Positions 15,503 to 60,424 of a stretch of 64,000 nt of DNA are shown here, one piece after another. Source of the DNA: Flavobacteriaceae bacterium PS02337 (lineage in GTDB: Bacteria > Bacteroidota > Bacteroidia > Flavobacteriales > Flavobacteriaceae). Below the pieces are notes generated by a model, which ran no database searches, was not told the DNA's origin, and saw only the letters and a program-made list of their open reading frames with translations. The position numbers and the translations under genes were made by a program. The stretch's first letter is position 1. Every line of letters starts with the position of its first letter. The stretch spans positions 48,248 to 112,247 of the forward strand of contig JASCOE010000015.1 in the NCBI GenBank assembly GCA_029959285.1, read 5' to 3'.

Positions 15503-15586
15503 GGAGAGGTGCCAGAGCGGTAATGGAGCAGATTGCTAATCTGTCGACGGGTAACCGTCGCCAGGGTTCGAGTCCCTGTCTCTCCG
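15503..15586 (+). tRNA. tRNA-Ser (GCT)
   Basis: An 84-nt cloverleaf with the long variable arm of serine tRNAs. Acceptor GGAGAGG pairs with TCTCTCC, the anticodon loop is TTGCTAA, and the T-loop region is GGTTCGAGTCC. CCA is not encoded. Confidence 0.93.
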
Positions 15587-15600
15587 CTTAATTTTGCCTT

Positions 15601-15675
15601 CGGGGTGTAGCGTAGCCCGGTTATCGCGCCTGCTTTGGGAGCAGGAGGTCGCAGGTTCGAATCCTGCCACCCCGA
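15601..15675 (+). tRNA. tRNA-Pro (TGG)
   Basis: Acceptor CGGGGTG pairs with CACCCCG, the anticodon loop is TTTGGGA (TGG), and the T-arm contains GGTTCGAATCC. It lies 14 bp after tRNA-Ser, so it is part of the same transcript. CCA is not encoded. Confidence 0.93.
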
Positions 15676-15705
15676 CTAAACTTTACCATAAGTTTTAAAA
15701 GAAAT

Positions 15706-15779
15706 GGTTCCATAGCTCAGCTGGATAGAGCAACGCACTTCTAATGCGTAGGTCGAAGGTTCGAATCCTTCTGGGATCA
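15706..15779 (+). tRNA. tRNA-Arg (TCT), probable integration target
   Basis: Acceptor GGTTCCA pairs with TGGGATC (with G-U pairs), the anticodon loop is CTTCTAA (TCT), and the T-arm contains GGTTCGAATCC. It is the last tRNA of the cluster. Its 3' part (15758-15773 and beyond) recurs inside the end of the adjacent recombinase gene, so this tRNA or a relative was the insertion target of a mobile element. Confidence 0.92.
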
Positions 15780-15783
15780 CTCA

Positions 15784-20803: not shown

Positions 20804-22087
20804 TTAATTGGAATCTTTTTGTTTCTGTTTTTCATCACGCAGCAGTACTTTATAACCTGCTTTCACAACTACCTTAACCAGTTTTACTTTTTTGCTTAGC
20901 AGACTTTTAGCCGCTTCAATTCCTGCTCCCGCTGCCTGAGCGCCCCAGGAATCATCCAATGATGTAACTCCTAAAGTTTGCATGGAGCGATCAGCCGAGG
21001 CTTTCGCTACATCACGATTAATGGCTCCCGGAATATATATCCCGACAAGTCCATCCATGTCGTAAACAGACAAATCCACCGGGAATAAAGAGTTGTTGTA
21101 TCTAATACTACTAATGTTGATTGTTAATCGCTCTCCCTTTAAAGAAGCTGTTCCATACAGAAAATTATCTTTTGGAATTTTAATGCCATTTATAAAAATG
21201 TCATTCATGAGTCGGAACTTAACTGTGGAGCCATTTACAATTGTTTGTGTTTCATGAATAATGGCTTCTACAGCATTCGGCATTAAATCATCATTTTCAA
21301 ATTCGTCTAAAGAGTAAAAACCATTCTGTTTGTAATCAGAACTGTTCAATGTTTTGTTTTGTAAATAAGAAACAGGATCTTCATACTCCTTGGTGGAAAT
21401 AGTAAAGACTTGTCCACGCTGAGCCTCGGAAGCTTTTTTTAATTTTTCCTGTACCCTGTTTGGATGTTGGATATCCAAAATACTCTCCAGCATTCCTCCG
21501 AGTTGCTGCAGTTCCGGATCCTGACTTTCCTGCTCTTCATTCATGGATTGCATCATTTGTTCGAGCCTGTCCACATCATTGGAATGCAGCGAGGTTTCAT
21601 TCGATTTTGCAATTTTTACATAATCTTTATTTTGCGCCGGAACTGCTACTGATGTATTGATTGCTTTTTGCAATGCTTCCAATTTTTGATGTACTTTTTC
21701 TTCGTTTGAATCGCGATAAACAGATTTATTTAAACCATGTCGCTCTTTTCTCTGAGTAACAGCACTGCTGTCTTCGGTTGAATCAATCTGAAAAGACTGG
21801 CTCAAATAGTTGGGATCTTTTTTAATAAGTTCATCAAGCTTTGCTGAATCAAGTGCAGCCAGATCATAGTAATTCATTTTATCGAGCGGAAGTCCTTCTT
21901 TCAGGTTCGCATTGGGAAGTTTTAGATTAAAACCTTTTTGCTGTGGTGCTGCTGAGTTGGCAGCATCCATTTTTCCACCTCCCAATGCCCAAAATATGGC
22001 AGTTAGAAATGGCAACGCCAATATTGGCAGTACCAAGAGCATCTTACGATGTTTTAAAGCCTTTAATGATTTTGTGTTTTGTTCCAT
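20804..22087 (-). CDS. traM: conjugative transposon protein TraM (VirB10-like)
   Basis: A 427-residue protein. An N-terminal membrane segment (MLLVLPILALPFLTAIFWAL) is preceded by basic residues, then a proline/glutamine-rich periplasmic stalk. The C-terminal domain (VEAIIHETQTIVNGSTVKFR, IPKDNFLYGTASLKGERL, DMDGLVGIYIPGAINRDVAK) is the TraM/VirB10-type fold. It spans the envelope and links the inner-membrane complex with TraN. The gene order supports the assignment. Confidence 0.88.
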   Translation of the reverse strand: MEQNTKSLKALKHRKMLLVLPILALPFLTAIFWALGGGKMDAANSAAPQQKGFNLKLPNANLKEGLPLDKMNYYDLAALDSAKLDELIKKDPNYLSQSFQIDSTEDSSAVTQRKERHGLNKSVYRDSNEEKVHQKLEALQKAINTSVAVPAQNKDYVKIAKSNETSLHSNDVDRLEQMMQSMNEEQESQDPELQQLGGMLESILDIQHPNRVQEKLKKASEAQRGQVFTISTKEYEDPVSYLQNKTLNSSDYKQNGFYSLDEFENDDLMPNAVEAIIHETQTIVNGSTVKFRLMNDIFINGIKIPKDNFLYGTASLKGERLTINISSIRYNNSLFPVDLSVYDMDGLVGIYIPGAINRDVAKASADRSMQTLGVTSLDDSWGAQAAGAGIEAAKSLLSKKVKLVKVVVKAGYKVLLRDEKQKQKDSN

Positions 22088-26439: not shown

Positions 26440-28905
26440 TTATGCTCTTAAGTCATTGGCAAGTGCTGCAATGCCTTTTCTTATGTCACCATCAAATTTC
26501 TTAGCATACGCCTGTACTTTTACTTTTTCAGTTTCTTCGGTTGTGTACGCGTAATATTCTTCAAGGGATACCTCCGTGCGGTATACTTTAGACTGCATGC
26601 CTCCCAGAGAAATAAATACTTCTTTGTATTTCTTATCAGGATCATTGGCTTTGTTTACAGATAGTACGAGTGCCTTTTCTTTTTCGGTAAGCCCAAGCAG
26701 TTCCTGAATCTGTTCGAACTTATTTTGATACTTGCTTTGGTCCAATAATATCTTGCAGTCACTGTTATTGATAATAGCCTGCTTGACTACCGGAGAAGAA
26801 ATAATATCTTCTACTTCCTGCGTGACTACTATGGCCTCTCCAAAGAATTTACGCACAGTCTTGAATAAATACCGAATATATTCTGCCATTCCTTCCTTGG
26901 CAATAGCTTTCCAGGCTTCTTCAATCAGGATCATTTTTCGGACTCCTTTAAGCTTGCGCATCTTACTGATAAAGACTTCCATAATGATGATCGTCACCAC
27001 TGGAAAGAGTATTGGATGGTCTTTGATATTATCGAGTTCAAAAACAATGAAGCGTTCTTTTAACAGATCCAGATTCTCAGTAGCATTGAGCAGGTAATCA
27101 AATTCACCTCCTTTGTAATACGGACGCAGTACGTACAGAAAATTGTTTACATCAAAATCCTTTTCCTTTACCTTATCACCTTCTAATATGGATACAAACT
27201 CGTTTTTCAGAAATTCATAAAAGCTGTCAAAGCAGGGAAATAAATCGGAATTGCTATCTAATTTTTCATAATACAATTGCAGTGCATTGGACAGTGCTAC
27301 ATATTCACTTCGATTGAAAGTTTCATTGTCTTTTTTCCAGAGTGCCAATAAGAGTGTTTTAATACTTTCTTTTTTCTCGGTATCAAGCGAATCGCCTTCA
27401 CTGATATAAAAGGGATTAAACCTAATAGGGTTCTTTTCATCGTAGGTAAAGTAATAGCCATTAACCATATCACACAGTCCTTTGTAGCTGTGCCCGACAT
27501 CAACAAGTACAACATGAGTTCCCTGCTCATAGTAACTTCTAACCATATGATTGGTGAAAAATGATTTACCGCTTCCCGAAGGCCCTAGTATGAATTTGTT
27601 TCTATTGGTACAAATCCCCATTTTTACTGGTTCGTCGCTAATGTCTACATGAACCGGTTTTCCAGTCAATCGATCTCCTAATCGAATTCCAGTTGGACTA
27701 AGCGAAGAACGATACCCTGTTTCCAGATTCAGGAAGCATGTTGCTTGTTCTGTAAACGTATCAAAGGTGTCATTCATTGGGAAATCTGCGGAATTCCCGG
27801 GAATTCCTGCCCAAAATATTTGTGCGCCACCCACTGTTTCTTGTTTAGCAGCTGCATCCATCTGAGCCAGTGCTGAAGAAACTTTATTCTTCAGGTCTTT
27901 GAGTTCTTCTTTATTATCTGTCCAGATCAGCACATTAAAATGTGCTTTTACAGGCAGTCGCTGCTGGCTGATAGCCTCGTTAAGAAAATCATTTGTAGCA
28001 TCTCGCGCAATCAGGTTCTCCCTACTGTAGGCTGATAAGGATTGCAGTCGCAGTCTTTTACTTTCAAGTTTTTGCAGCGTTTTCTGGAAATCCTCTATGA
28101 AAATATATTGATTATAAATGTGGTTACAGGAAAGTAATTGCCCCAGAGTCGAAGCAAATCCGATACTGAATTTGGTCTTATCTGTGGAATAGCGGTCATA
28201 ATTAATTCTCGAACCACATAAGGCAGGCAGATCAGCGGCATCCCCCAACGTATAAATCTGGCAATGTTTGTCTCCTACCTGAAGACCATCATCAAAAGAG
28301 ATATCTTTAAAAACAAACGAGTTCTGTTTTTCAGACAAAAAACAATATTGTTCAATGATACCAATCTTTCTGCTGTGGCTTTTAAGTTCATCATTACCAA
28401 GGCGGGTCAATTTGACAAAACTACTGTCTTCCAGTATGCGTCTGAATTGTCCGGTACTATCAATAAATTCCTGACGCAATTGTGCTTTTAATGTTTCTTC
28501 AGGAACAATAGAAGCTCTCAATAAATTTGAAAATAGGGAACTTGACGTTTTTCTTCCTACCGGTTTTTTGGTTAAAAAAATGTAACAAGAATGATCCAGA
28601 AAGGGACGTTCATTAAAAAAGCGTTCACTGCTTCGGGTAAGAAAACTCGAATCTTCGCTTGTGAAATCGGGTTCAAACTTGCTGTCTATAAACCAATCCT
28701 GCTTATGGAATACGCTAAATTTCGGCAATAACTTTATCGCTTTAAGCCACGCCTGATGAAATGCTTCGTATTCCTGATCCGACAAGGTAAATATCTCGGG
28801 CAGTTCTGCTTTAAACACTACTGTCACATCGCCTTGTTTGGACAGGATGCAATCGTGCTCTACATCCATAATTGGTAAAATATCATCTATCATCTTTTCC
28901 ATCAT
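26440..28905 (-). CDS. traG: conjugative transposon ATPase TraG (VirB4-like)
   Basis: An 821-residue VirB4-type ATPase. The N-terminal half (to about 400) is the conserved VirB4 platform domain. Walker A is FILGPSGSGKSFFTNHM near residue 440, Walker B is KMILIEEAWKAIA near 660, and a later TVRKFFGEAIVVTQEVEDI motif matches the family's arginine-finger region. It powers assembly and substrate transfer at the inner membrane. It is co-directional with traF upstream and the TraI-like trio downstream. The alternative start at the second Met does not change domains. Confidence 0.93.
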   Translation of the reverse strand: MMEKMIDDILPIMDVEHDCILSKQGDVTVVFKAELPEIFTLSDQEYEAFHQAWLKAIKLLPKFSVFHKQDWFIDSKFEPDFTSEDSSFLTRSSERFFNERPFLDHSCYIFLTKKPVGRKTSSSLFSNLLRASIVPEETLKAQLRQEFIDSTGQFRRILEDSSFVKLTRLGNDELKSHSRKIGIIEQYCFLSEKQNSFVFKDISFDDGLQVGDKHCQIYTLGDAADLPALCGSRINYDRYSTDKTKFSIGFASTLGQLLSCNHIYNQYIFIEDFQKTLQKLESKRLRLQSLSAYSRENLIARDATNDFLNEAISQQRLPVKAHFNVLIWTDNKEELKDLKNKVSSALAQMDAAAKQETVGGAQIFWAGIPGNSADFPMNDTFDTFTEQATCFLNLETGYRSSLSPTGIRLGDRLTGKPVHVDISDEPVKMGICTNRNKFILGPSGSGKSFFTNHMVRSYYEQGTHVVLVDVGHSYKGLCDMVNGYYFTYDEKNPIRFNPFYISEGDSLDTEKKESIKTLLLALWKKDNETFNRSEYVALSNALQLYYEKLDSNSDLFPCFDSFYEFLKNEFVSILEGDKVKEKDFDVNNFLYVLRPYYKGGEFDYLLNATENLDLLKERFIVFELDNIKDHPILFPVVTIIIMEVFISKMRKLKGVRKMILIEEAWKAIAKEGMAEYIRYLFKTVRKFFGEAIVVTQEVEDIISSPVVKQAIINNSDCKILLDQSKYQNKFEQIQELLGLTEKEKALVLSVNKANDPDKKYKEVFISLGGMQSKVYRTEVSLEEYYAYTTEETEKVKVQAYAKKFDGDIRKGIAALANDLRA

Positions 28906-29269: not shown

Positions 29270-32200
29270 TTAAAATTTCATCCTGCTGCTGCGTCTCATC
29301 TCCGAAAAAGAGCGCTCCTGCCATTTATCAGTATTGCTTTCTGCCACTGTGAGATGCTGTGATTCTTCAATACTCTTTATTGGCAGTTGAATTACCGGCG
29401 CTGTATCCGTTAATTTTGTTTCATTACTGAGACTAGCCTCTTGCGGATTGGCTTCTTTCAATTGGTTCTCCTGAATTTTCAGGGCTATTTCCCTTTCCAG
29501 ACTACAGAGATCGCTTTTCATTTTTTGAAGCTCATGCTCTTGGCTAAATACCCTTGTGGTTAATTGTTGTAATTCCGGCAGTTGATTTTCAATATCATTC
29601 AGGGACTTTTGGTATTTTGCCGTGAGATGTTCCACCTTATCAATGGCATTTAGAAAATGACGGGCTGCCAATTTTGGATTGTCCACATTTGGAGTTCCTC
29701 CATTTGAAGTATATTTAATACCATCTTCCAAACGTTGTGCATAAAAGCTGTTGCAGTAACGGTACTGGTACAAACCATCATTTTGATAGGCTTCACGTTC
29801 TCTTTTTATATAGAGTCCAAAATCATATAACTTCCCAATTTGTTTGGCCAGGTTTTCTCCTTCTGGAGGTTTCCAGTTTTTATAGAGCAGGATAATTTCT
29901 TTGCCGATAATTTCTGGATCTGCTGTTTTGCAGTTATACAACTCAATGGGATTGGCTTTGGAACCATCAGGCTCATACTTCAGATTGTTTTTGTAAAAAC
30001 TGTGATCAGCAGTTAGTTTGTCCAGAGTTTTAGTGGTGATTCCTTTTTCTTCCATTAAATATTCAACCTGATATTTAGTTCTGGAAATTTCCTTGTAATG
30101 TGCTTTTTTAAGGCTTTCCATTACCGTTACTTTTTTCTCCAATTTTGATTTTTCCAGTAATGAAGTATCACCAGATAGCACTGCGATATATTCTGAAAAG
30201 TTCATACCGCTTTGCTCATCCATGGCTCCCTCATCAATAGTCCTCACATTAAGTTCACAGTTTTTCATCTGACTGATAAAAGTCTGTTTGTTCTTCAAAA
30301 GGTTGAATTTGTAATTGTCCAGGGATTGCTCTGTTGCATAGATGAAATTTTTTACTTTATTCCCATAATGCAGTTTGGCGACTTCGTTCCCTTGTCTGCT
30401 GCCTCGGCCGTTGCGTTGTCCCAGGTCAGATGGTCTCCAGGGAATATCCATATGATGCATCGCCACAACACGCTTCTGCACATTAAGTCCGGTTCCTGCT
30501 TTTTCTGTACTACCCAAAAGAATACGTATCTCACCGGTATTCATTTTAGAAAATAACTCTGGTTTCTTTTTATCGGTCCAATCGTGTATGTAGGTAATCT
30601 CATGAGCCGGGATGTTAAAATCCTTTACCAGTTTTTCTTTAAGAGCATCATACATATTAAAGGCATCCGGCTTGGGTGTACCGATATCTGAAAAAACAAT
30701 CTGAGTGCCTTTATGCTCGATGGAAGCCTGATAAATTTCAGCCACATTTCTGGCGCATGTATTGACCTTATTATTCGGATGATCACCATATCTTTCATTT
30801 ATCAGCCTCATATCGGCAGCCATTTTTTTAGCATAATTAGTAGCGATTAGCATCCTGCCTTTATCTTCCTGTTGGGTAAGGGGTGCCCTGCCGATAAGTG
30901 TCGCATTACCTGTTTTTGCAAACTGCATGAGCTGGGTAATAAATTCACTTTGCTCAGGTGTAGGACTAATATTGACAAGTCGCTCGTCAATTTCAGGTTT
31001 GTCCAGATCAATATGTTTGGCTGTTTTGTAATCGGTAATCTCGTTATAGAACAGTGCCAGTTCCGGAACTTTAATAAAATGACGAAAACGCTCTTTGGCA
31101 ATAATCTCATTGGTGACAGAAAATTCAAAATCAGTTGTTTTTCTGGCAAAAACAGCTGCCCATCCATCAAAGTTTTCAATATGCTGGCGTTCCATTTCTT
31201 TAGGGCGCAGGTATTTGAAAAGCAGATACATTTCGGTAAGACTATTGGATATTGGAGTACCGGAAAGAAAGGTCACACACAGATCCGAATCGAATTTTTC
31301 CTGAAGCGTGCGTACCGCAAATAACATATTAAGCGCCTTTTGGCTTCCCTGCATATTTCCAATTCCTGCAACACGGTCATGACGGGTAGTGAAAGTCAGG
31401 TTTTTGAATTTGTGAGATTCATCTACAAACAAATGATCAATCCCCATTTCTTTAAAGTTGATGCCGCTGTCCTTTTTATCTTCTATATCTTTCAATAGTG
31501 TTTTTAGTCTGCCATCCAGATTATTTTTTCGTATTTCAAGACCTTTTAATATTTTCTTGGAAATGTCACCTCCCAGATCTCTGGCTGTATCAAGGTCGCG
31601 TTCTATATTATCCAGCTCATTTTGTAAGATCTCTTTTTGTATTTCGGGTGACTGCGGAATTTTACCAAACTGATCGTGGGTTAAAATGATACAGTCCCAA
31701 TTGTTATTTTTGATCTCATGGAAGAGTCTCATTCTTTTTGCCGGAGTAAAATCATTTTCACCAGGTGCCAATATTCTTGCATTGGGATATGCCTTTCTAT
31801 AGGTTGCTGCAATTTGATTTACATTAGCATTCAATGCCAGTATTGCAGGTTTATGAATAATCCCTAGTCGTTTCATTTCATTGGCAGCTACAATCATAGT
31901 GAGTGTCTTTCCAAGTCCGACCTCATGATCGATTAATGCACCACGGTTCTGAATAATACGCCATGCCGCATTTTTCTGAGAACTGTACAAGTCTTCAATC
32001 TCCAGAGCTTTTTTATCCAAACCCGGAAAGCTCAGATGACTTCCATTATATTCTCGCAATACGTAACAATTAAACGTATTGTTATAGAGATTTTCCAATT
32101 CATTTTTGTCGTTTATTGGCAATTCCTGCAGCCACTCAATAAAACCATTACGGATGTTTTCAATTTTTTGATGGGCAAGCTGTATAGCTTCATTATCGGG

Positions 32201-34840
32201 CAGTCGGATGGGTTTTCCGCCGGCTCCCTCAACTTCATAGGTAAAAAAGGGAGCCGTATTTTCGAGCGCATGCTCCAATATGGTGTATCCATAAGTTGTT
32301 CTGCCGCTTTTTGGAGTCACCGAAAATTCTCTGTCTATTTTGGTATTATGTCCTGTACTTACTTTAAAGGTATCCAGTGATGGGAAATAATTAATTTCAG
32401 TTGGCTGGTCAAATAATTTTCCGGCAAAACTTTCATAGTATCGGTTAGGAATCCATCGTTCGCCCAGGTTAAAATCGAGTAATTCAAAAGGGATACGCTC
32501 TGGCTGAACTTTTTCCAGTGCCTGCAATCCTTTGTAATATTGCGTGTTTTCAGGGTATAACTGCACAGCCTGTTTAGCCTGTTGTAACTTTTCTACAACA
32601 TTGCCGCTTAAATAGAGGTCTGAAGTTTCCCAATTCTGCCCTGTAGGATTCAAATAAATATGTTGGTTCAGACGTTCTATAACCTCATTTTGTTCAAGTC
32701 CTGTTGCAGCAGTTATAAATCCTAAGTCAACAGCTCCTTTTTCATTCAGACTTCGGGCCAGCGCTTCAATCGGATCATCTGTATAATAGCGCTCTTGCTG
32801 TTTTACTACAGATTCTATTAAAATATCCGACTTCACATAACGTTCGCCTTCTTTGCGTTCCAATGAAGAAAGAATGGTGAAACCGAAAGCGGAATCCTGC
32901 ATGATTAACCTGCGATTCTCAGCACCGTTCAAAATACCATAGTGGGAAACAAATTTGGTATACTGCTCATCTAGATTTTTCCGAACCTGTTCACTGCCAG
33001 CTTTATCTGATTGCTCTTTCTCAAACAATTCCAGATAATGATCCCGAATAGCAATATAGGAATCATAGAATTTCAGATTGCCTTGTGATGCTAATGGCTG
33101 GAAAAAGGCTTGTTTGTGCTGCTCATTGATATCACTGATAATTCCAACGGATTCTCCAACTCTAACCAGAGTACCTTCTGTATAAAAAGATTTCAACGAA
33201 GCAACTTCTTCATAGAGTCGTTTTTCCAGGTTAAAAGCAGGTTCAAGGGTTTTATCTCCTTCATAAATATATTTGTGATCATAGTATTGAAGGGTATTGG
33301 ATAAAGCCAATAATTCATGTGGCAGTAATCCGCCATTCATCCAATTGGCTGAAAAGCCATCGATTTCTTTTACATTCGAATATAATTTATACAGGTATCG
33401 ATTAGTCTTGATTTGTTTAGCAGTGATAAGAACCACATTTTCATGCGAGGGATTATCATTTGTGCGTATGGTACTGAGTATTCGTGCTGTTTTTTTATCC
33501 ACTACAGTTTCATCAAGAGGATTGATGTAATCCATAGCACGGTTGATGTTCTCTGCAGGCACAGTATCAAACAAGCCAAGCTGGACTGAAATACCGCTTG
33601 CTTTACTCTCTGGCATGGGTAAATAAGTGAATTTTTGTCCGATTGCTTGCGCGGGCTGAACTATCTCCGTTTTTTGAGCCTGCTCAAAGCGTTCTAAGTT
33701 GAAATTATCTTTTAGTCCCTTTGTAATGTTTTCTCCAAGACGGTTTCCAATAGAATTGATATCACCGTTTTGTCTCACACTTTGATGCGCCTGTCCGTAT
33801 TGGTTTTTACCGGCTTTTATTTCATTCCCAATGATGAGCTCGGGTCTGTTGTGCAGATATTTATTGATACTGTATTTTCCAAATTCATTTTCAAGTTCAA
33901 CGGTTTGCAGCAGCTCATTTTCATTATCAGACAGGGTTTGTTTATGCTCGTTTTTCTGAACAATAAGCAAATGATTAGGAGCATCGGTATTTCCGGTCTC
34001 CTTCATCAGGTTATCAGGCATAACTGCTACACTCACAAAATCTGCATTTTGAAAAAGATATTCTCGCGCGCTTTGATTGGAAGGACTGTTCAAAAAACCG
34101 TCTGTTGTAATATAAGCCATAAGACCGCCATCAGCGAGTTTGTCCAATCCTTTTGCAAAAAAGTAATTGTGGATTTTTCCTGAAATCGTTTTATCGGGAT
34201 AGGCTTGGTCATACACAGAAAAATTACCAAAAGGAATGTTGCTGACCACAAGATCATAACTGCCGTTATCATTTGTTGGAGCTTCTTCCAGTCCTATTAC
34301 ATGAGTGGTATTTTGGGTTGAAAGTGTACTGTTTAATGCTGAAAGTACCAGTCCGCTTAATTGGTCTTTTTCCACAGCAGTAATTTGTTCCAAATTTGAA
34401 AATGCACTGTCTGCTTCAGTGATAAAAATTCCTGATCCTGCTGATGGCTCGTATAATCTTTTAGGATTAATACCTTGTTCTTCCAAAGCAGTGTACAAAG
34501 TGCTCGGTACTATTTCCGGTGTATAAAATGCGGTAAGAACACTATTACGAAGTGAAGAAATAACTGAATTATAATCTTTTTCAGAATAGTGTTCCTGCAA
34601 TAATTCATGCAGTCTTGTCATTTCCGGATGCAGCTTCAGATCTTCTTTAGTAGCGCCGGATTTTATCCAGTCTTCAGTAGTGCCATTTGGGTATAATACA
34701 GCCTTGATACCTCCGAAGCCAGCATATGCCTTAAGCGCGTCAACTGCTTCTGCCGATAAAGCATCACCTTGCTGCCATTGCATTGCAATGGTAATCGCCT
34801 TGATATTGGCACTTAGTTTTTGGGATAGATTGTAAGCCAT
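29270..34840 (-). CDS. giant N6-DNA methylase-helicase fusion of Bacteroidota elements
   Basis: A 1,856-residue protein. Near residue 140 is a methylase motif I ([11 protein letters not shown]), and near 206 a motif IV of the form VVSNIPFG, which departs from the usual NPPY/F but is typical of this element-borne family. A central region of unknown fold follows. From about residue 960 an SNF2-like helicase begins with Walker [15 protein letters not shown], then [24 protein letters not shown] and a C-terminal helicase lobe ([25 protein letters not shown]). It recalls DarB-like or antirestriction methylase-helicases. It probably protects or processes element DNA on entry, which is inference. It is inserted between traE and traF. 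Confidence 0.85.
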
Positions 34841-35799: not shown

Positions 35800-36279
35800 T
35801 TATTCCCAAAGGGCTTCTGCTTCCTTCTGGGTTAAAGTAATTGATTCGAGTTTCTCACATTCTGAGACTATCAGTTCACTTATCGAAGAATTAAAAGGGG
35901 AATTTTTCACTGAAGGGAATTCTCTTAGGAGAAGCTGCAGATAATAGGTAAATTCTTTTTTGACTAATTTTTTCTTTGCAGCATCTGCGATGAAAGTTTT
36001 TAATCGTCCCACCAAAGTATCAACATCCTGAAAAGTAGTGTCAAACTCTCCGAAGGAAATTTGTTCTGAGATTGCTTCAGGTAATTCCTGATAATTTAAT
36101 TCGGATTGAGAATCCTCGTAACTTGGATTTTCAAATCCACGGAATTGAAGTTTCCGCTTTCCTGATATGACTTCTTTGAGATCATCAAAATAAAATCGAA
36201 ATCCAACAAATAAATACCAGCTTGCCAATAGCAGAATAACTACAACTATGTAATTACCCCATGAAATGTTTGTAAACAT
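35800..36279 (-). CDS. single-span membrane protein at the start of the tra cluster
   Basis: A 159-residue protein. One N-terminal membrane helix (NYIVVVILLLASWYLFVGFR) is followed by an acidic cytoplasmic domain (ENPSYEDSQSELNYQELPEA) and a basic helical patch (KTFIADAAKKKLVKKEFTYY). I do not recognise a family. Similar short membrane proteins precede traE in Bacteroidota elements. It is the first gene of the minus-strand block, with 500 bp of regulatory-looking DNA upstream. Confidence 0.65.
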   Translation of the reverse strand: MFTNISWGNYIVVVILLLASWYLFVGFRFYFDDLKEVISGKRKLQFRGFENPSYEDSQSELNYQELPEAISEQISFGEFDTTFQDVDTLVGRLKTFIADAAKKKLVKKEFTYYLQLLLREFPSVKNSPFNSSISELIVSECEKLESITLTQKEAEALWE

Positions 36280-36395
36280 ACCTCATCATTTTATCGTTCT
36301 ACATTAGTTTCTCACAGTCCCGGAAGATGGACAATTCTAATTCCGGATCTTCATCATTACAGAACAAAGTAACGATAGAGATAAAACTGCCACAA

Positions 36396-36439
36396 GTACA
36401 ACTTTTCGTTGTACCCTAGTTGTACCCCGTTGTACCCCC
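36396..36439. repeat. GTTGTACCC tandem repeats and hairpin upstream of the tra cluster
   Basis: Three direct copies, GTTGTACCCT (36408), GTTGTACCCC (36419) and GTTGTACCCC (36429), have a period of 10-11 bp, so they lie on one DNA face. An inverted half, GTACAAC (36396-36402), makes a hairpin with the first copy. They lie in the 496 bp spacer between the minus-strand tra block and the plus-strand 1,699-residue gene. This fits an operator or iteron array. The rest of the spacer (36440-36741) is AT-rich with poly-A runs and no gene. Confidence 0.65.
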
Positions 36440-36741
36440 AGTAAAATCAAGGATAAAAAAAATTAAAAAAAATGCAAAAAAATAAAAAAACCTCCCGAAT
36501 GGAAGGCCGATTTGATGCTGAGATAATTATTTCAGGATAATTGTTTGTGTTCTATTTTTTTTATTGTAATACAGATAAAAGAAAATTTTTCATTGAAGCA
36601 GTATAAAAAAGCGAGTATTTTTATTTTGTAGGTTAACTAAAAAAAAAACACTTTTTAGTACCATAGTCTTAACAAACTTTATTACCCACAACATCTTAAC
36701 TTTAATATTAATTAACTATAGTAAATAGTATCGTAATACTC

Positions 36742-36749
36742 TATATTTG
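36742..36749 (+). promoter_or_regulatory. candidate -7 box for the GHKL-DarT-HD gene
   Basis: TATATTTG is an exact Bacteroidota -7 box 27 bp before the GTG start. No TTG lies at the ideal -33 place, so the promoter may need an activator. An operon of the large gene and the macro gene would begin here. Confidence 0.45.
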
Positions 36750-36775
36750 ATTTCAATTAAAAATCACAAATCATA

Positions 36776-39700
36776 GTGCTACAAGAAATCATACGATTAC
36801 AATTTGAAGAAAACACAGATTATAATAATCCGGGACAGGCAGTAAATCAGATGCAGTCATTATATGCACTATCAAAAGACCTGTACACCGATTCAATAAG
36901 ATTCATATACGAGCTGTTACAGAATGCGGACGATTCTAATATAGGGGAATCAAAAGTAAAAGTTTCAGTTAGGCTTATTGGCAACAACCTAGTAATAGCT
37001 CACAATGGTAAACCATTTGATGAACGTGATATACAAGGTATATGTGCCGTTAATAATGGTACGAAAAAGCAAGAAACAGATAAAACCGGATTCAAAGGCA
37101 TAGGATTTAAATCTGTTTTTGGGCAATCTGATAAAGTGACAGTATTTTCTAGTGGTGAATATTTTAGGTTCGACGAATCGTATCTCCACGATTGGAAGTG
37201 GGCTGGTACACAAGAATCGTGGGAAGAACAAAGTAGAAGGTTATTTAAGTTTCCTTGGCAAATAATTCCAATATCTACCAAACCGGAAGAAGTCCAGCCA
37301 GATATCCATCAATATCTTATCGGAACAGACTTTACAGTGGCTACAATTGTTGAGATTACTAATATTAAAGAAGCTGAAATCGCAATCAATGAGTTGTCCG
37401 ATAAAGTCGACATGTTTCTTTTTCTGAAAAATATTGAAGAGATTAATTTTAACTTGGGCATCCAAAAAGTTATCCGTATCACACCAACAGAAGAAAATGA
37501 AACTTTACTAACGCTAAATGGTGAGACAAAAGCAAAATATTTACTAAAGCATATCGTGCTTTCCGTTCCAGCATCTGTAAAAAAATCAATTGCCGGAGAT
37601 ACAAACGTTCCTGAAAAACTAAAGCTGGCGGATAATATCGAGATTTCATTTGCGGCAAAAGTAGGAGATAACGGACTTGAGACAATTTCATCCTCACAAA
37701 GTTTGCTATATGCATATCTTCCAACTGAAGAACGAAGATATAAGCTTCCAATACTGGTAAATGCAGCCTTTCTAACAACAGCAAATAGGGAAACATTACA
37801 TGCAGATTCTGCTTGGAACCAATGGTTATTTTATAGTCTGTCTAAAGAATTGTTTATCTGGATTGCAGAATTAGTTATAGGTAAATTCTCGGATGAAGCT
37901 TACAGGCTTTTACCTGAAAAGCTTGATGGAGATAATGCCTTGATAAAAGAGTTTAATAAAGGTTATAACGAATCCATTTCACTTCTACCTTTCCTTTTGA
38001 CCTATGAAAATAAGCTTGTAAAGATTAATGACGCAATTATAGATGAGACATTTTTAATAGGTAATGAACTGTTTGGACAAGACTTAATAAGAACATTTGT
38101 TATTAATGAATTAAATTTACAAACAACTGATTTAAAGCCGTTTGTACCTCATAGAAAATATACCAATAAGCTTAAAAAGCTAGGAGTCAATTCTTTCAAA
38201 TGGATCAACTTACCGCAGCTTTTGGCATCTCCACTATTCAATTCATTGCACGACGTTGAAAAAAACAAAAAATTAATTGTTGCAATGGAAGAATTTAGTC
38301 AAATGGAAAAACCTTCTGAGATACATAATGATAGCCTCAAAAAGTGGGCATTTTTATTTGATCATAAAATGAAATTAAAATCCCCAGAAGAAATATTTTT
38401 TCCCCAATTAGACGATTCTACGTGGGATTCTCCTGATAGTGAATTATCCTTTGTACATCCTGAAATTCTAAAATGGCTAGACAGCAAAATTAAATTGAAA
38501 TTGTGGCTGGGTGAACTAGGTGTTGTAGAGAAATCTGATTTAACCTTTTTTCACAAGACAATACTCCCCAACGTTGCAACTTTTATAACTGACGTCAATG
38601 CGTTGGAAACAGTGAGGAGCATATTTATGCTATTTAAGAGAAATGAGATTAACTCCGAATCTTTATTTAAGTTATCAGATCTTAAGTTGTTCACAACACA
38701 AGGCAATTTACTTTCTGCAAAAAATATGTATTTTTCTACTGTATACGACCCAATACTCGATTTACAGCCAGTGCTTAATAAAGACTTCTACTTGTCTGAT
38801 CAATATATATCTGCAGAGTCAGAGCTTTCTGAATGGAAACGTTTTTTCAAATATTTTGGCGTTCAAGAGAGAATCTCTATCACTACAACCACAACAAGAA
38901 AATCAAAGATTACACTGATTAATAGAGATTTTCAAAGTGGATATTTTGATATGGATGACAAGCGTTTTTACGGTAACCATTTCCTAGCATTTGCTTACAT
39001 CGGATTAAGTACTTCCAGTTTGTTGACAGATATGACCATTGAGCCAAAGAAATCTTCATTATTTTGGTCAGATTTGATTAGACATAACGATCTGGAAAAA
39101 ATAATTATACAGGCTACGGCCTTCTGGGGTCACACAGGCAAGCCCAGTGAAACTACGGGAAATAAAGTAGATAATTATTTGAAATGGTATATCCAGAATA
39201 ATGACTGCCTGCCTACACTAAATGCCAAGTGTTTACCAGCGGGAAGCATTTTCCTTAATGATGAGCGCATCAATGAAATCGTGGGTGCATATCTTCCTGT
39301 TTTTGACGGCCCGAATTTGGATGCAGACTGGAGGTCATTCTTTGGCTTTAAGACAAGTTTAAGCGTTGAAGATTATCTTTCGGTATTAAATTCAATTTCC
39401 GAAGATTTAAATTCAGACAATAAATCGCGTATACAGAAGATTTATGAATATCTTTTGGACAATATAACAAATTGGACTTCTGAAGTTCTCGAAGAAATAA
39501 AGGAATGGGCAGCAGGCGCAAAACTTATGGATAAGAAAGGGGACTTTTCTCCAGCCTTTACTTTAAAGCATTATCCTGATGGCGACAATTCAATATTTCA
39601 GGACAGGTTTGAGTTCATACAGCTAAGTGCTTCCAATAGAAAACACCCTGAAATTTCAGAATTACTTGCTCTGTTTGGGGTTGAAATTATAAAACAAAAC

Positions 39701-41875
39701 TCATTTAAGCTAAGTGTGACTAATGAAAAAGATGCGGATAATCTTAGTGAAAAAATAGCTTCAATAATACCTTATTGGGCAAAATGGACAGAAAGTGAAG
39801 CACAGAGTGGCTATCCGCAGAGAAAGTATGAACTCGAAACCATATTTGAGAAAGCATCTTTTAAAATTGCAGATGAATTGGTTGTGTCGTTCGGACAAGA
39901 CTGGAATAAAGAGGTAAGTGTATATGAAAATGAAAACGTTTTTCATGTACTGACAAATTGGAAAGCCAACGACGTGATGTTAGGATTGATTTCTAAACTT
40001 TGTGACTATTTTAAGGCCAAACGATTCGAATCGGAACTAGGCTTTTTGTTACGCTCAGAAGAAGAAGAAATTATACGGTATTTTAATAGAGAGGATATAG
40101 AAATTCCAGAATTTGAAAGAACTACAATAAAATCAAGTACCAATTCTGATCCTGTCCTCCCTATTTTTAGCGATTTTAAAAAACCAATTGATTATCTCAG
40201 CCTGTGGAAAAAGAATCTCGAACGAAACAGTAATCTTATAGAATTTGCATCCGGAGATTCCAAGAGACTCTTACTAAATGGTCTGAAAAAACAAAAACCC
40301 GACACTGAGGTCTGCATCTATCATTTTAGTCATCTGGAAAATGCGGTTACCATAATTAAGGAACAACAAATCAAGAGCAGGCAATTAGCAAACTTCAAGG
40401 ATTCTGCAGGAGCTGGTATAATAAGTCAGACGCTGGAGGATCGAAAACAATATGCCCGATTTTATTTCAGATCCCACACCCCAACACAATATTATGTTGA
40501 AAACTGGGGACGAGGGCAATATTCCTTAGATCACATCAATGGCGAGCCTGTTTGCCCCGTACCTGTTTTTTTTATAATTCCTATTGATGAAATAATTGAA
40601 TCAGTAAATTGGAAAGTAAGTCTGGGAACAATGGCATCACATAACGTACAATATGGAAACACGTTCGATATTGTATCCAAATTTGATTTTGACAGCCTAT
40701 ATAAGATGAAATCTGACGTTGATCATGATCGGTATATGGCTGCTTCCCATCAGGAATTTCTAGTAAAGGACAGCCTTCATTTAGATAGGATTAATTACCG
40801 TCTCGCTGTACAGGATAGTGAAGCAAGGAATGCCCTACTTATTATGCTTAATGATTATGAGAAATGGGAACCGCTAATATCTATCGACCCAGATCTGTTT
40901 TATAATGAAAATCCAAAAATAAAAATTAGTAAGAATGATCATAAATTATCAACTGATTTTACTGGAAAGCGGAATGGTAAATTTGTTATGCAATACTTAG
41001 GAGTTGATCACTGGAAGAAAATAAAGGGTGATAATATAGAACAGTACAATAATAATGGAGTTACTACAACAATTTCCGCGAAGACTATAAATCTATCATC
41101 AAATTTTGAGGTTTTAAGATATAATTTATTTTACTGTTATAATGGTCAGCTGTGGCTTGTTGATACCAATGACCCTGAATCAAATACCTTTGATACAGGA
41201 TATATAGCAACGGCTTTAAATAATTGGATGCAATCTGGAAATAATACTCCAGTAGAACTGATTATGAATTTAAAAATGCATCCGGAGCTAAACGATCACT
41301 TTAATAAATCTATTGGAGGTCCTGATAAGCTAACACTGCAAGAACATACAATTGCAGTGATGTCTAATTATCAAAAATACTTTAATCATCAACAAGCGTT
41401 TTTTCCAGAAGAGAAGATTTTTTTACTTTTCCTGGCTTTGCACGATATTGGTAAACCTAAGGCAATTGCATTGGGCAACAGGCATGAACAGCACCACCAT
41501 ACACTTGAGATTATAGATGCAATTACTTCAACTTTACCTGTCGATGCTACACAGATAGAAAAAATAAAAATTTTAATAAACGAAGACCCTATTGGGAAAT
41601 ATTTAAATCCTGCTGTTTCCCAGTCGCTTGATGTAACTGTCAGGGAAATTATCGCCATAAATGAAAAATTTGGAATGTCATTTGTAGATTTCTATCTAAG
41701 CTACATTATATACTACCAGTGTGATGCCGCTGGTTATGGCTCTTTAGTTGAAACCCTTTTCAAAACTGCCGAGTCTGGAGAACTGTTAAAGCATCCCGAG
41801 AAGAACCGGCTACTTTTCAATGATCCGTATGAAACAAAATTCTTAATGCTTGAAGAGCAATTAGACTTACTTTAG
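36776..41875 (+). CDS. sacsin-like GHKL ATPase - DarT-like ADP-ribosyltransferase - HD domain fusion
   Basis: A 1,699-residue protein with a GTG start; upstream frames are closed. Residues 1-250 form a sacsin-like GHKL ATPase domain: E46 and N50 in YELLQNADD, N77-G78 in IAHNGKPF, and the lid GFKGIGFKSVFG (105-116). A long middle region of unknown fold follows. From about 1175 to 1400 it resembles DarT: IYHFSHLENAVTIIKEQQI (from 1181), ARFYFRSHTPTQYYVE, and E1327 in SHQEFLVKDS, the place of the catalytic Glu. The C-terminus is an HD phosphohydrolase-like domain: EHTIAVM, LHDIGKP with H1556-D1557, HEQHHHTLEI and QCDAAGY. DarT modifies thymidine in ssDNA using NAD+. The partner 3 bp downstream is a macro-domain protein like DarG. 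A phage-triggered DarTG-type defence is inferred. Confidence 0.85.
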   Translation: MLQEIIRLQFEENTDYNNPGQAVNQMQSLYALSKDLYTDSIRFIYELLQNADDSNIGESKVKVSVRLIGNNLVIAHNGKPFDERDIQGICAVNNGTKKQETDKTGFKGIGFKSVFGQSDKVTVFSSGEYFRFDESYLHDWKWAGTQESWEEQSRRLFKFPWQIIPISTKPEEVQPDIHQYLIGTDFTVATIVEITNIKEAEIAINELSDKVDMFLFLKNIEEINFNLGIQKVIRITPTEENETLLTLNGETKAKYLLKHIVLSVPASVKKSIAGDTNVPEKLKLADNIEISFAAKVGDNGLETISSSQSLLYAYLPTEERRYKLPILVNAAFLTTANRETLHADSAWNQWLFYSLSKELFIWIAELVIGKFSDEAYRLLPEKLDGDNALIKEFNKGYNESISLLPFLLTYENKLVKINDAIIDETFLIGNELFGQDLIRTFVINELNLQTTDLKPFVPHRKYTNKLKKLGVNSFKWINLPQLLASPLFNSLHDVEKNKKLIVAMEEFSQMEKPSEIHNDSLKKWAFLFDHKMKLKSPEEIFFPQLDDSTWDSPDSELSFVHPEILKWLDSKIKLKLWLGELGVVEKSDLTFFHKTILPNVATFITDVNALETVRSIFMLFKRNEINSESLFKLSDLKLFTTQGNLLSAKNMYFSTVYDPILDLQPVLNKDFYLSDQYISAESELSEWKRFFKYFGVQERISITTTTTRKSKITLINRDFQSGYFDMDDKRFYGNHFLAFAYIGLSTSSLLTDMTIEPKKSSLFWSDLIRHNDLEKIIIQATAFWGHTGKPSETTGNKVDNYLKWYIQNNDCLPTLNAKCLPAGSIFLNDERINEIVGAYLPVFDGPNLDADWRSFFGFKTSLSVEDYLSVLNSISEDLNSDNKSRIQKIYEYLLDNITNWTSEVLEEIKEWAAGAKLMDKKGDFSPAFTLKHYPDGDNSIFQDRFEFIQLSASNRKHPEISELLALFGVEIIKQNSFKLSVTNEKDADNLSEKIASIIPYWAKWTESEAQSGYPQRKYELETIFEKASFKIADELVVSFGQDWNKEVSVYENENVFHVLTNWKANDVMLGLISKLCDYFKAKRFESELGFLLRSEEEEIIRYFNREDIEIPEFERTTIKSSTNSDPVLPIFSDFKKPIDYLSLWKKNLERNSNLIEFASGDSKRLLLNGLKKQKPDTEVCIYHFSHLENAVTIIKEQQIKSRQLANFKDSAGAGIISQTLEDRKQYARFYFRSHTPTQYYVENWGRGQYSLDHINGEPVCPVPVFFIIPIDEIIESVNWKVSLGTMASHNVQYGNTFDIVSKFDFDSLYKMKSDVDHDRYMAASHQEFLVKDSLHLDRINYRLAVQDSEARNALLIMLNDYEKWEPLISIDPDLFYNENPKIKISKNDHKLSTDFTGKRNGKFVMQYLGVDHWKKIKGDNIEQYNNNGVTTTISAKTINLSSNFEVLRYNLFYCYNGQLWLVDTNDPESNTFDTGYIATALNNWMQSGNNTPVELIMNLKMHPELNDHFNKSIGGPDKLTLQEHTIAVMSNYQKYFNHQQAFFPEEKIFLLFLALHDIGKPKAIALGNRHEQHHHTLEIIDAITSTLPVDATQIEKIKILINEDPIGKYLNPAVSQSLDVTVREIIAINEKFGMSFVDFYLSYIIYYQCDAAGYGSLVETLFKTAESGELLKHPEKNRLLFNDPYETKFLMLEEQLDLL

Positions 41876-41878
41876 AAA

Positions 41879-42331
41879 ATGAAAATTATTCAATCAGGAG
41901 ATATATTTCAAAGCGAGGCGCAAACACTTGTAAATACCGTTAATTGTCTTGGTGTCATGGGCAAGGGTCTCGCTTTGCGATTTAAAAATGAATATCCCGA
42001 AATGTATGTGGCTTACGTAGACATTTGCGAAAGGAGGCTTTTAGATATTGGAAAATTGTGGCTTTATAAAACAGATGAAAAATGGATTTTAAATTTCCCA
42101 ACCAAGTATGATTGGAAACTGCCTACACAAGAGCAATACCTAGAATTAGGGCTTCAAAAGTTTTTGAGTACATATAGGAAAAAAGATATAACATCTATTG
42201 CATTTCCATTGCTTGGAGCAAGCAATGGAAAACTTGACCCTAAAGTTTCTTTGGATATAATGACTCATTATTTAAGCCAATGTGAAATACCCGTTACTAT
42301 TTATTTGGCTTATGAAAATAAAAAAATCTAA
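41879..42331 (+). CDS. DarG-like macro-domain protein (minimal antitoxin)
   Basis: A 150-residue macro domain. The ligand loops are clear: GDIFQSEAQTLVNTVNCLGVMGKG at the N-terminus (residues 7-30 region, given here in parts: VNTVNCLGVMGKGLALRFK), the DarG-type WILNFPTKYDWKLPTQEQY, and the second loop AFPLLGASNGKLD. DarG macro domains remove ADP-ribose from thymidine in DNA and so neutralise DarT. Typical DarG also has a C-terminal domain that blocks DarT directly; it is absent here. The gene starts 3 bp after the DarT-like fusion gene, so the two are certainly co-expressed. Confidence 0.9.
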   Translation: MKIIQSGDIFQSEAQTLVNTVNCLGVMGKGLALRFKNEYPEMYVAYVDICERRLLDIGKLWLYKTDEKWILNFPTKYDWKLPTQEQYLELGLQKFLSTYRKKDITSIAFPLLGASNGKLDPKVSLDIMTHYLSQCEIPVTIYLAYENKKI

Positions 42332-42366
42332 TCCGAAGTTTCAAAATCTTTTAAGGAACAGATAAA

Positions 42367-42680
42367 TAGAAATTGTATTTTGCCTCTGATATGCCAAGAA
42401 GTTTTGGACAATCTGATTTGTATGTGTAGTAATAAACGAAGATGGAGCCTTTGGTAAACTGGAAAATCTTGGCGCAGAAAATTAGTACTTAAGTACGGGA
42501 AACTTCCCTTTTAAAGCAGTGGAAAACGGACTTTATTTTGCCAGTGATGGACATCCGGGATTAGGAGGTTTGGATGTTTCTGTTCCAAAATAAAAGACAA
42601 TTTAACTTTCAATCGCTTAAAAATATAGGAGAACCGGTAAATATAAAGTTTAATGATTATGTCTTATATAATTGATAGTA
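42367..42680 (+). pseudogene. remnant of an OmpA-family/PD40 beta-propeller outer-membrane gene
   Basis: The 550 bp without an intact gene (42332-42881) contains broken, in-order fragments of a flavobacterial OmpA-type protein with PD40 repeats: KLYFASDMPRSFGQSDLYV then a stop, NEDGAFGKLENLGAEN then a stop, GNFPFKAVENGLYFASDGHP followed by GLGGLDV, and finally LKNIGEPVNIKFNDYV in another frame. Several stops and a frameshift make it non-functional. It has no start and no end domain. Confidence 0.75.
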
Positions 42681-42881
42681 GTGGGAAAATCAGCTCAATT
42701 GACCATTATCTGTCAAAATTAAAAGACCATCTTAATTTTGTTTAAATTTATTCCTAATATTTAATACGTCATCATAATATTAGAAAAAAAAAACATTATA
42801 CCTTCACTAACAATAATTTAGATTAGAATTAATTTAAAATATGATAATTAATTAAATAGTGTTGGTCAACACATTCCAAAA

Positions 42882-43569
42882 TTACTGTTTAATTTGTTCC
42901 GAAAGTATATGGTCTAAATGGCCATTTTTCCAACCAAGGAGTTTACTATAAAGACTGTGATCGACAATCTCAGGATTTATTATGATCAAATCAATTATTT
43001 TAGGTCGTTTATTCCTATCCTAAAATGATAAAAATTCAATCTCCGACTTTTTATCAAGTAGCTCCCAGCCATCATCTTTTCGTATAAAATAGACTTCATG
43101 ACTAAGTGTGTCTTTCAATCCGTTTTTAATTGCAGCAGCAAAAACATTTTTTTTTTCGAATTGTAGTATATTCAACAATTGCCTTATTACCGGAACTCAT
43201 CATCCTTATTTCTTTGATTGCTCCAAACTCTTCATCTGCAACTTTTATGCGTTGAATTTTACTTATTTTATCATCTTTGGGTGTCGGTAGTAGATAAGGT
43301 TTTGCTGCTGTAGTAAAACTTATAAAGGAAGTTGTATCACCAAGCTTCTTCGACTGCAGTACTTTTACAAATCCTTTTTCTACAAGTCCCGATTTAAAAA
43401 TCGTGTAAGCATGTGTGGGATCACCACAGAAAATATCATGATCTACAATAGTAGGGTAATGATTTTTTTCCAGAATAAGGGCGGTAGCCAATTTCTCATC
43501 CAGCTTTTTAGGCTGGCAACCTGTTATGATCAGAATCATAGTGGCTAAAATATAAGATAGCTTTTTCAT
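42882..43569 (-). pseudogene. lipoprotein gene broken by a poly-A frameshift and an in-frame stop
   Basis: The first frame encodes a lipoprotein of 147 residues (signal MKKLSYILATMILIITGC) ending in the odd tail RKKKCFCCCN. That tail follows a run of ten A (43147-43156 on the plus strand as T). Removing one A continues a sensible protein: KKNVFAAAIKNGLKDTLSHE, VYFIRKDDGWELLDKKSE, EIEFLSF, then a TAG. The same frame stays open after the TAG for 45 codons, to TAA at 42882. The function is unknown. It may be a real decayed gene, a homopolymer slippage switch, or a sequencing error at the A-run. Confidence 0.65.
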
Positions 43570-56043: not shown

Positions 56044-57198
56044 TTAAGAGTATTTAGATGCTAATTCAAGAATCCCACTTAGGGCTTGTTTCTGTTGATT
56101 ATCGTAAGAATTTTGAATTAAATCATATAAAATGTTCTGGAAATTAGTGTATGAAATTTTCCCTTCCGACAGTAAATTGAATTTTTCTATTACAAGCTGA
56201 GAAATAAATCTGTTTTCAGGTGTTGTCAAGTCAAAATAGTTATCATAAATTTCTTCAACATTTTTTAACTCTTTATTTTGTTTGTTAAATTGTCCAAAAG
56301 ACGAACCTTTGAAAATATTTACATTTGTAATGTTTAATTCTGCACCATTAATGACGAGGGGTGAATGTGTAGCTATTATTATTTTGGGTTGATAAAAATA
56401 AAATAATTCACTAAGTTTCTTTACATATTCGACTTGCCATTTTGGATGAAGACTATTCTCAGGTTCATCAATTAGAATTATTGAACTATCTGTGATATTT
56501 ACACTAATATACATTAGTGAAGCGATCAGAGTTAGTTCTCCCGAACTAGCGTGATTTAATGGAAATGAATGATTATTCTTAAACAGAGTTATTTCAATAT
56601 CTTTTAAAATTTTAAGCTTCTTAAGTTTACTTTCGTAGTTTAAAACTTTTAAGAAGAAAACATTTCTAAAGGCGTCAAATTCATTATTTTTATCAAAATC
56701 TAATATAAATTTGCCTTCATTTTCAATTAATGAATAATCGTAAGATCTGTTTAAAAAATATAATAAATCTTCAATTTCTTCTTTGTTGAAAGCACTAGTA
56801 TTTATAATTATATCTCTAAAGTCAGGGTTAAGGTTATTTATTTTAAACTCAATTCTTGGCTGTAGATTTATATAGTTAAAAACATTAGAAAGATTGAAAA
56901 AAGCTTTTATATTATCACTTTCCAATACCTTTAGAACTTCTTTAATGGAATGTTTCGCAATGTTTTTACCATGAGAACTTTTGAGTAGTTTTGCTCTAGA
57001 TCCTTTTATTGTAAATTTATCATAGATTGTGTTAGCTATTGCAATTACTGTTTTGCCCCTTTTTAAATGATGTTTTGCTATTTCATTTAAATATGTACTT
57101 TTTCCACTTCCATTTATTCCGACTAAGATGTTTACATCTTCGTCTGATCTTGAGTTTTCTAATAAGTCTATATTTTGATTGTTATGAAAAAAAAACAT
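56044..57198 (-). CDS. ABC/RecF-like ATPase, PtuA-like
   Basis: A 384-residue ATPase. Walker A is ILVGINGSGKSTYLNEI (G27 to S34), the signature-like region is NHASSGELTLIASLMYISVN, and Walker B is SSIILIDEPENSLHPKWQVE, followed by the switch His in IIIATHSPLVI. The small size, with no coiled-coil insertion, fits PtuA or Abi-type overcoming-lysogenisation ATPases. It pairs with the HNH gene downstream, forming a Septu-like unit. The preceding spacer is one of the conserved cassette-like ones. Confidence 0.85.
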   Translation of the reverse strand: MFFFHNNQNIDLLENSRSDEDVNILVGINGSGKSTYLNEIAKHHLKRGKTVIAIANTIYDKFTIKGSRAKLLKSSHGKNIAKHSIKEVLKVLESDNIKAFFNLSNVFNYINLQPRIEFKINNLNPDFRDIIINTSAFNKEEIEDLLYFLNRSYDYSLIENEGKFILDFDKNNEFDAFRNVFFLKVLNYESKLKKLKILKDIEITLFKNNHSFPLNHASSGELTLIASLMYISVNITDSSIILIDEPENSLHPKWQVEYVKKLSELFYFYQPKIIIATHSPLVINGAELNITNVNIFKGSSFGQFNKQNKELKNVEEIYDNYFDLTTPENRFISQLVIEKFNLLSEGKISYTNFQNILYDLIQNSYDNQQKQALSGILELASKYS

Positions 57199-59133: not shown

Positions 59134-59135
59134 TG

Positions 59136-60368: not shown

Positions 60369-60424
60369 TTTATTTTGTTGTATTTTTTTTTTAGAATGAG
60401 GCATAACGCCCTGCTATTACACTT

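Follow-up and report, generated by a model that had tools for sequence, protein, structure and literature searches.

The 64,000-nucleotide window analysed here (contig JASCOE010000015.1 of Flavobacteriaceae bacterium PS02337, assembly GCA_029959285.1, positions 48,248 to 112,247 of the forward strand) contains a two-gene unit encoding the large protein P0001 and, 3 bp behind its stop codon, the small macrodomain protein P0002. With a probability of roughly 0.6, P0001 is a Tiamat-type defence protein whose C-terminal domain has been replaced by a DarT-like ADP-ribosyltransferase (ART) and an HD domain, and the next gene encodes the cognate macrodomain eraser. An initial annotation, made from the DNA letters and their translations, had proposed a single 1,699-residue protein with the order GHKL ATPase, DarT-like domain and HD domain, followed directly by a macro gene. 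The order was recovered by the open reading frame (ORF), by the motif positions and by profiles from Pfam, NCBIfam and PADLOC, and the macro gene by its own ORF and a Pfam Macro match (E 1.4e-14). The motifs YELLQNADD (from residue 45) and GFKGIGFKS (from 105) lie in the ATPase, IYHFSH (from 1181), ARFYFRSHTPTQYY (from 1227) and the catalytic glutamate Glu1327, within SHQEFLVK, in the DarT region, and LHDIGKP (from 1555) in the HD domain.

The TmtA core and its variable C-terminus

The PADLOC model PDLC03972 of TmtA, which we take to be the protein of Tiamat although literature searches gave no confirmation of the gene name, matches P0001 residues 3-1136 with E 3e-273 (model positions 4-1125 of 1302). 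The ATPase within this stretch is recognised by Pfam SACS (E 1.2e-10) and by NCBIfam P_loop_sacsin (82.7 bits, cut-off 50). By profile similarity, the N-terminus of P0001 belongs to an already catalogued defence family, the TmtA core, and the earlier view that the layout was not a known one has to be withdrawn for these residues.

Model positions 1126-1302 are left unmatched by P0001. The close relative P0010 from genome G030 fills positions 4-1300 of the 1302 and has a NOV_C (DUF3883) domain at its end, DUF3883 being described in the available text of PMC3710099 as a novel restriction endonuclease domain. P0008 from Flavobacterium suaedae shares 42% identity with P0001 residues 10-1112 and no match beyond 1112; C-terminal to its core, Pfam finds a Schlafen-AlbA domain and then a caspase domain, and no macro gene was found in the 23 kb of its locus. 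A member of another TmtA clade, from genome G082, terminates in a helicase like MkoA, presumably the Mokosh helicase. The proteins with caspase or helicase ends likewise match TmtA models. Because the NOV_C, caspase and helicase ends differ, the C-terminus of the TmtA platform is judged from these sequences to be variable, with DarT and HD occupying that place in P0001 and the swap point lying at about residues 1112-1157. P0001 thus resembles Tiamat in the core with its sacsin ATPase and in being a very large protein, and departs from it in carrying DarT-HD in place of model positions 1126-1302 (NOV_C in P0010) and in having a second gene, the macro gene.

Two further observations concern other members of the platform. 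The loci L007:9971-21152 (F. suaedae) and L008:9971-21119 (Flavobacterium supellecticarium) encode a Tiamat core followed towards the C-terminus by Schlafen-AlbA and caspase domains, the Pfam scan for these two covering the L007 protein. At both loci the core gene is followed by four genes, alike at the two, one of which encodes a protein of about 1,050 residues that by eye is similar to SMC/MukB-type proteins; these loci are possibly a caspase-effector Tiamat operon. The G082 protein (L022:1763-8695) is a single chain of 2,310 residues in which a Tiamat core (PDLC03970) is joined to the MkoA-like helicase, and its gene adjoins one matching PDC-S68. The count of a TmtA survey (178 of 295 genomes) was set aside, as many of the weak matches listed resemble HtpG/Hsp90, with frames of about 600 residues and the ATPase only.

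The DarT-like domain, the macro protein and the HD domain

The C-terminal part of P0001 matches Pfam DarT (PF14487) over the full 201-position profile (E 2.5e-16, 60.4 bits, cut-off 22.5), and its score against the NCBIfam DarT equivalog is 14.3 bits with a cut-off of 150. An alignment and tree were made of 17 DarT domains: five fused to large proteins (P0001 and four relatives), a DarT from Rhizobium acidisoli, and 11 ordinary DarTs, the last comprising 10 of the 18 non-fused matches and a Klebsiella plasmid DarT, with L071 and L072 near-identical. L074, L075, L078, L084, L087, L089 and L090 were left out for internal stops or as partial sequences, and L088 for its very long branch. The catalytic glutamate, whose position in P0001 was confirmed as annotated, and the tyrosine of the FYF motif (Tyr1230) are invariant in all 17 domains. 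The five fused domains and the R. acidisoli DarT split from the ordinary DarTs with 100/100 support. Support for the fused five alone is 67/87, down from 92/98 in an earlier tree with four fused rows, before the Hymenobacter and Rhizobium sequences were added. On this tree the DarT domain of P0001 is placed in a divergent clade and is no ordinary DarT2.

Two columns, assigned by alignment only, are of note in this clade. The methionine position of the PMLY motif holds threonine in all six clade members and methionine in all 11 ordinary DarTs, while the base-coordinating position holds asparagine in five of the six, threonine in P0001, and histidine (six) or asparagine (five) in the ordinary DarTs. 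According to the available text of PMC11543638, the methionine stabilises the oxocarbenium ion, the base is coordinated by H119 in DarT2 and by N104 in DarT1, and alanine mutants of DarT1 at E152, N104, M71 and R52 were inactive and non-toxic. In the column of the catalytic arginine (R51 in DarT2, R52 in DarT1) the alignment of the NAD loop is gapped and P0001 shows no clear arginine. As far as its sequence goes, the DarT-like enzyme is probably active; since the PMLY methionine and base-coordinating positions are altered, thymidine should not be assumed to be its substrate.

That the domain modifies a target other than thymidine, be it guanine, RNA or protein, and that the macro protein erases this mark, with the defence logic unchanged, is a rather unlikely alternative. 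It draws on the clade-wide exchange of methionine for threonine and on the asparagine of five of its members, DarT1 with N104 having guanine as its target in the available text of PMC11543638; P0001 itself carries threonine at that position, asparagine also occurs there in five of the 11 ordinary DarTs and so is not diagnostic, and the partner is a macrodomain, whereas in the same text DarG failed to reverse guanine marks.

The partner P0002 matches PADLOC DarG with E 7.4e-50 over model positions 4-144 of 329, that is, over the macrodomain only, and scores 157.6 bits against NCBIfam DarG (cut-off 250); the C-terminal half of DarG is missing. It is 56-58% identical to the 230-residue macro proteins of two genomes with fused DarT proteins, G220 and G256. 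All full-length macro sequences compared, leaving aside broken or cut ones, retain the lysine of the FPTK motif (K76 in P0002). The catalytic lysine of DarG is K80 in the available text of PMC11543638, and from its position we infer that this is the FPTK lysine. Because the second DarG domain is missing, P0002 more likely erases marks than neutralises the toxin by binding it. The macro protein of genome G833 (L030:6195-7532) has 445 residues and includes, besides the macrodomain, the N-terminal portion of a type I methyltransferase (E 7e-65, model positions 1-204 of 834), which looks truncated.

The proposal of a DarTG-type system therefore stands in the DarT family membership, the catalytic glutamate and the macro partner, and is not supported as strict DarTG, given the two NCBIfam scores, the missing C-terminal half of DarG and the two changed residues. 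Compared with DarTG2, P0001-P0002 share the Pfam family with its catalytic glutamate and an adjacent DarG-like macrodomain with the FPTK lysine. They differ in that the toxin part is the C-terminal domain of a 1,699-residue ATPase with an extra HD domain, belongs to a divergent clade without the PMLY methionine and lacks an equivalent of H119, and in that P0002 is without the C-terminal DarG half. The asparagine of five of the six clade members recalls DarTG1 (DarT1-NADAR), in contrast to which the eraser partner of P0001 is a macrodomain rather than NADAR and P0001 itself has threonine at this position. The stand-alone 329-residue DarT of the same divergent clade on an R. acidisoli plasmid (L092:3069-6921) lies behind a macro gene, with genes for SIR2-family and ATP-binding proteins nearby.

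The HD assignment is the weakest of the domain calls in P0001. The full set of metal ligands (H1524, H1556-D1557, H1575 and D1650) is present and invariant in P0001 and both HD-bearing relatives, and the PADLOC Cas3-HD model matches all three (E 1.4e-4 to 4.3e-4). A scan of P0001 with Pfam HD (PF01966) returned no match, so the HD domain of the initial annotation is borne out by its residues and the Cas3-HD model, not by Pfam HD. Nine HD loci occur in the same genome, and five were compared by hhalign with the HD domain of P0001, giving 33.5, 30.6, 28.5, 26.2 and 17.2 with 14 controls at or below 18.3; four thus lie above the controls and one does not, and no single-sequence probability exceeded 40%. 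The best partner is of the poly(A) polymerase/tRNA-nucleotidyltransferase type. A sequence search of the PDB with the HD profile gave nothing up to E 10, and the same search with the DarT profile gave only the DarT structure 7omv (E 7e-4, aligned residues 10-90 of 210).

Recurrence of the cassette

The C-terminal part of P0001 was searched against 395 genomes of the order and 395 of the phylum, sets that overlap with each other and with the genomes of the genus search reported below. Five genomes matched in the order, namely the own genome, G220, G256 and two with weak, rejected matches; the five in the phylum were these three again, G833 and a further genome whose weak match was rejected. The matches in G357 and G126 (order) and in G776 (phylum) were rejected because a six-frame search of their loci at E 1e-5 recovered neither the core nor DarT, HD or macro.

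The relatives differ in the protein to which the cassette is attached. In G833, the 1,940-residue protein P0011 has an N-terminus of another TmtA clade (PDLC03970, E 3.6e-196); it aligns with P0001 residues 1157-1696 at 30% identity (E 5e-61), and similarity in the core is weak (E 3e-5). The 1,948-residue protein P0004 of G256 is by eye tryptophan-rich and repetitive, and its similarity to P0001 is confined to DarT (E 5e-33) and HD (E 5e-23). G220 encodes a fused version of 1,565 residues without HD. On a plasmid of Hymenobacter sp. NBH84 (L091:1930-7005), a helicase is accompanied by a repeat/DarT protein, again without HD, which the fused-DarT profile matches with E 9.5e-43. An MkoA-like helicase gene lies directly upstream of the DarT proteins of G220, G256 and NBH84, a likeness to Mokosh that P0001-P0002 do not share, the ORF map having no MkoA-like gene directly beside them; the three DarT proteins themselves gave no match to Mokosh models at E 0.001.

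Of the five fused proteins including P0001, three carry HD, and four have a macro gene that either follows immediately or overlaps. The initial annotation had held that its reading would fail if homologues lacked the catalytic glutamate and the macro gene; all four fused relatives keep the glutamate, and three of the four have the macro gene directly behind. No macro gene was found in 18 sacsin-core loci without DarT (one per genome, 1.8-23 kb of DNA each), some of which have an ATPase-like match only. On this sequence evidence, the cassette recurs on other large proteins. A wider proposal, put forward tentatively and judged less likely than not, is that a writer-eraser-processor cassette, consisting of a new-clade DarT-like ART with a substrate of its own, a stand-alone macrodomain eraser and an adduct-processing HD enzyme, has become attached to no fewer than three types of sensor, these being the two Tiamat clades and the repeat protein linked to the Mokosh helicase. 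On this view, Tiamat would serve as a general ATPase-based alarm to which different killer domains can be fitted, be they nuclease-like, caspase, helicase or ADP-ribosyltransferase.

Searches of mobile elements with the C-terminal part returned no relatives in phages, in viral contigs or, with P0001's own sequence as query, in plasmids; the plasmid DarT relatives surfaced only when the G256 sequence was used for the search. Whole P0001 and the macro protein have no relatives in viral contigs. With whole P0001 as query, 24 plasmid records are hit, in no case across 80% of the protein's length; the 20 records listed align only within residues 1-597. Among the open-licence papers listed in literature searches, none was seen to report a DarT fusion to a sacsin/Tiamat or Mokosh protein.

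Genomic setting, proposed mechanism and alternatives

The features of the unit are listed in Table 1. The promoter is presumably located in the intergenic region upstream of P0001 and remains predicted, with 39 sigma-70-like sites in 36200-43200 compared with 31.4 (standard deviation 5.2) in shuffles.

Table 1. Coordinates in the window of the P0001-P0002 unit and its parts (feature, position, strand, basis or remark)
Tiamat-core/DarT-like/HD protein P0001, 1,699 residues	36776..41875	+	GTG start, ORF map
DarG-type macrodomain protein P0002, 150 residues	41879..42331	+	ATG start; PADLOC DarG, Pfam Macro
Intergenic region, 496 bp	36280..36775		ORF map; upstream neighbour ORF oppositely oriented
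Tiamat (TmtA) core, residues 3-1136	36782..40183	+	PADLOC PDLC03972
Sacsin-type GHKL ATPase domain, residues 41-225	36896..37450	+	Pfam SACS, NCBIfam P_loop_sacsin
DarT-like ADP-ribosyltransferase domain, residues 1182-1376	40319..40903	+	Pfam DarT; Glu1327 at nt 40754
Post-DarT spacer, residues 1377-1479	40904..41212	+	Partly alignable with other fused proteins
HD phosphohydrolase-like domain, residues 1480-1699	41213..41872	+	H1524, H1556-D1557, H1575, D1650

The unit appears to be carried as cargo on an integrative conjugative element, because a serine recombinase gene (15895-17457) adjoins three tRNA genes (15503-15780) and conjugation genes follow (TraM, 20804-22087; TraG, 26440-28905). 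At the border of the conjugation genes, 29270-34840 on the minus strand encodes a 1,856-residue protein that matches Eco57I-type methylases and SNF2-like helicases and probably serves the element as a polyvalent protein. About 14-18 kb downstream of the unit, defence genes were found as the initial annotation had indicated: a PtuA-like gene (56044-57198), HerA (57379-59133, E 9.8e-298) and DUF4297 (59136-60404, E 3.1e-162). HerA and DUF4297 (57379-60404) form what we take to be a known candidate defence pair. Among the ten downstream genes scanned, there was also a weaker Ppl-like match (60425-63070, E 2.9e-28). Tiamat is common in genomic-island hotspots according to the available text of PMC12629846.

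In the mechanism proposed for P0001-P0002, the GHKL/sacsin core would sense an infection signal and, opening and closing with ATP as GHKL proteins typically do, would free the tethered DarT-like domain. The freed domain would ADP-ribosylate nucleic acid and block replication; its likeliest target is DNA, either that of the replicating phage or that of the infected cell. In uninfected cells, the macro protein would strip off stray marks. HD would probably be a second, optional phosphohydrolase, with the adduct, NAD/ADP-ribose or nucleic-acid ends as its substrate. Gating of the tethered effector by the GHKL core is suggested by analogy with GHKL-Shedu (VcSduA), a GHKL ATPase-nuclease fusion. 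In the available text of PMC12137116, ATPase and nuclease mutants of VcSduA each lost phage protection, and control of the nuclease by the ATPase is its authors' hypothesis. Both proteins have a GHKL ATPase at the N-terminus and, at the C-terminus, an enzyme attacking nucleic acid that the ATPase is proposed to control; unlike VcSduA with its DUF4263 nuclease, P0001 has a DarT-like ART and HD behind a sacsin/TmtA-type core, and Pfam gave no DUF4263 match in P0001 up to E 1.

Several points weigh against P0001 as a Tiamat-type protein with a DarT-like effector. The case is built from sequence comparison, and the defence function is putative. The cassette is rare, the C-terminal part being found only in the own genome among 300 genomes of the genus. 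The P0001 equivalents of the methionine and of the base-coordinating histidine or asparagine are T1237 and T1285, which makes substrate and activity uncertain. Single-sequence AlphaFold models of residues 1160-1400 and 1480-1699 reached a predicted local distance difference test (pLDDT) of 29.1 and 40.7, too poor to use and leaving the ART and HD folds unconfirmed; the low values of both are most likely due to the missing alignment. For the Hymenobacter relative, the PADLOC DarT model stayed short of 0.001, and a search of the whole 190-kb plasmid record, run without a positive control, found no recognised macro gene.

It is improbable that P0001-P0002 are instead a self-contained DarTG-like toxin-antitoxin locus stabilising the conjugative element, with an N-terminal part that merely holds the toxin and senses no phage. 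The apparent cargo position, the close spacing of toxin and macro gene and the retained catalytic glutamate would all suit such a locus, but a plain toxin needs no 1,136-residue TmtA-class core, 42% identical in a caspase-bearing homologue without a macro gene in the 23 kb of its locus, and in the Hymenobacter relative no macro gene was recognised. That the DarT-like domain is inactive or a sensor of NAD/ADP-ribose as ligand, with HD as the real effector, is very improbable, for although two positions important in DarT1 and DarT2 are altered and the HD metal ligands all intact, Glu1327 and Tyr1230 show no variation across the 17 domains, HD is missing from two of the five fused proteins while DarT stays, and an eraser of the macro type would have little purpose if nothing wrote the marks.

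We know of no described mode of action for Tiamat proteins, and an HD enzyme linked to nucleic-acid ADP-ribosylation would, to our knowledge, be new. A Tiamat protein with a DarT-like effector would offer a chemical read-out, an NAD-dependent label that a macrodomain should erase, by which activation of the sacsin-type ATPase would be directly measurable. It would also widen the range of DarT-type enzymes, so far members of small toxin-antitoxin pairs, to include tethered effectors, and one cassette across different large proteins argues that GHKL proteins and helicase partners in defence loci are platforms with exchangeable effectors.

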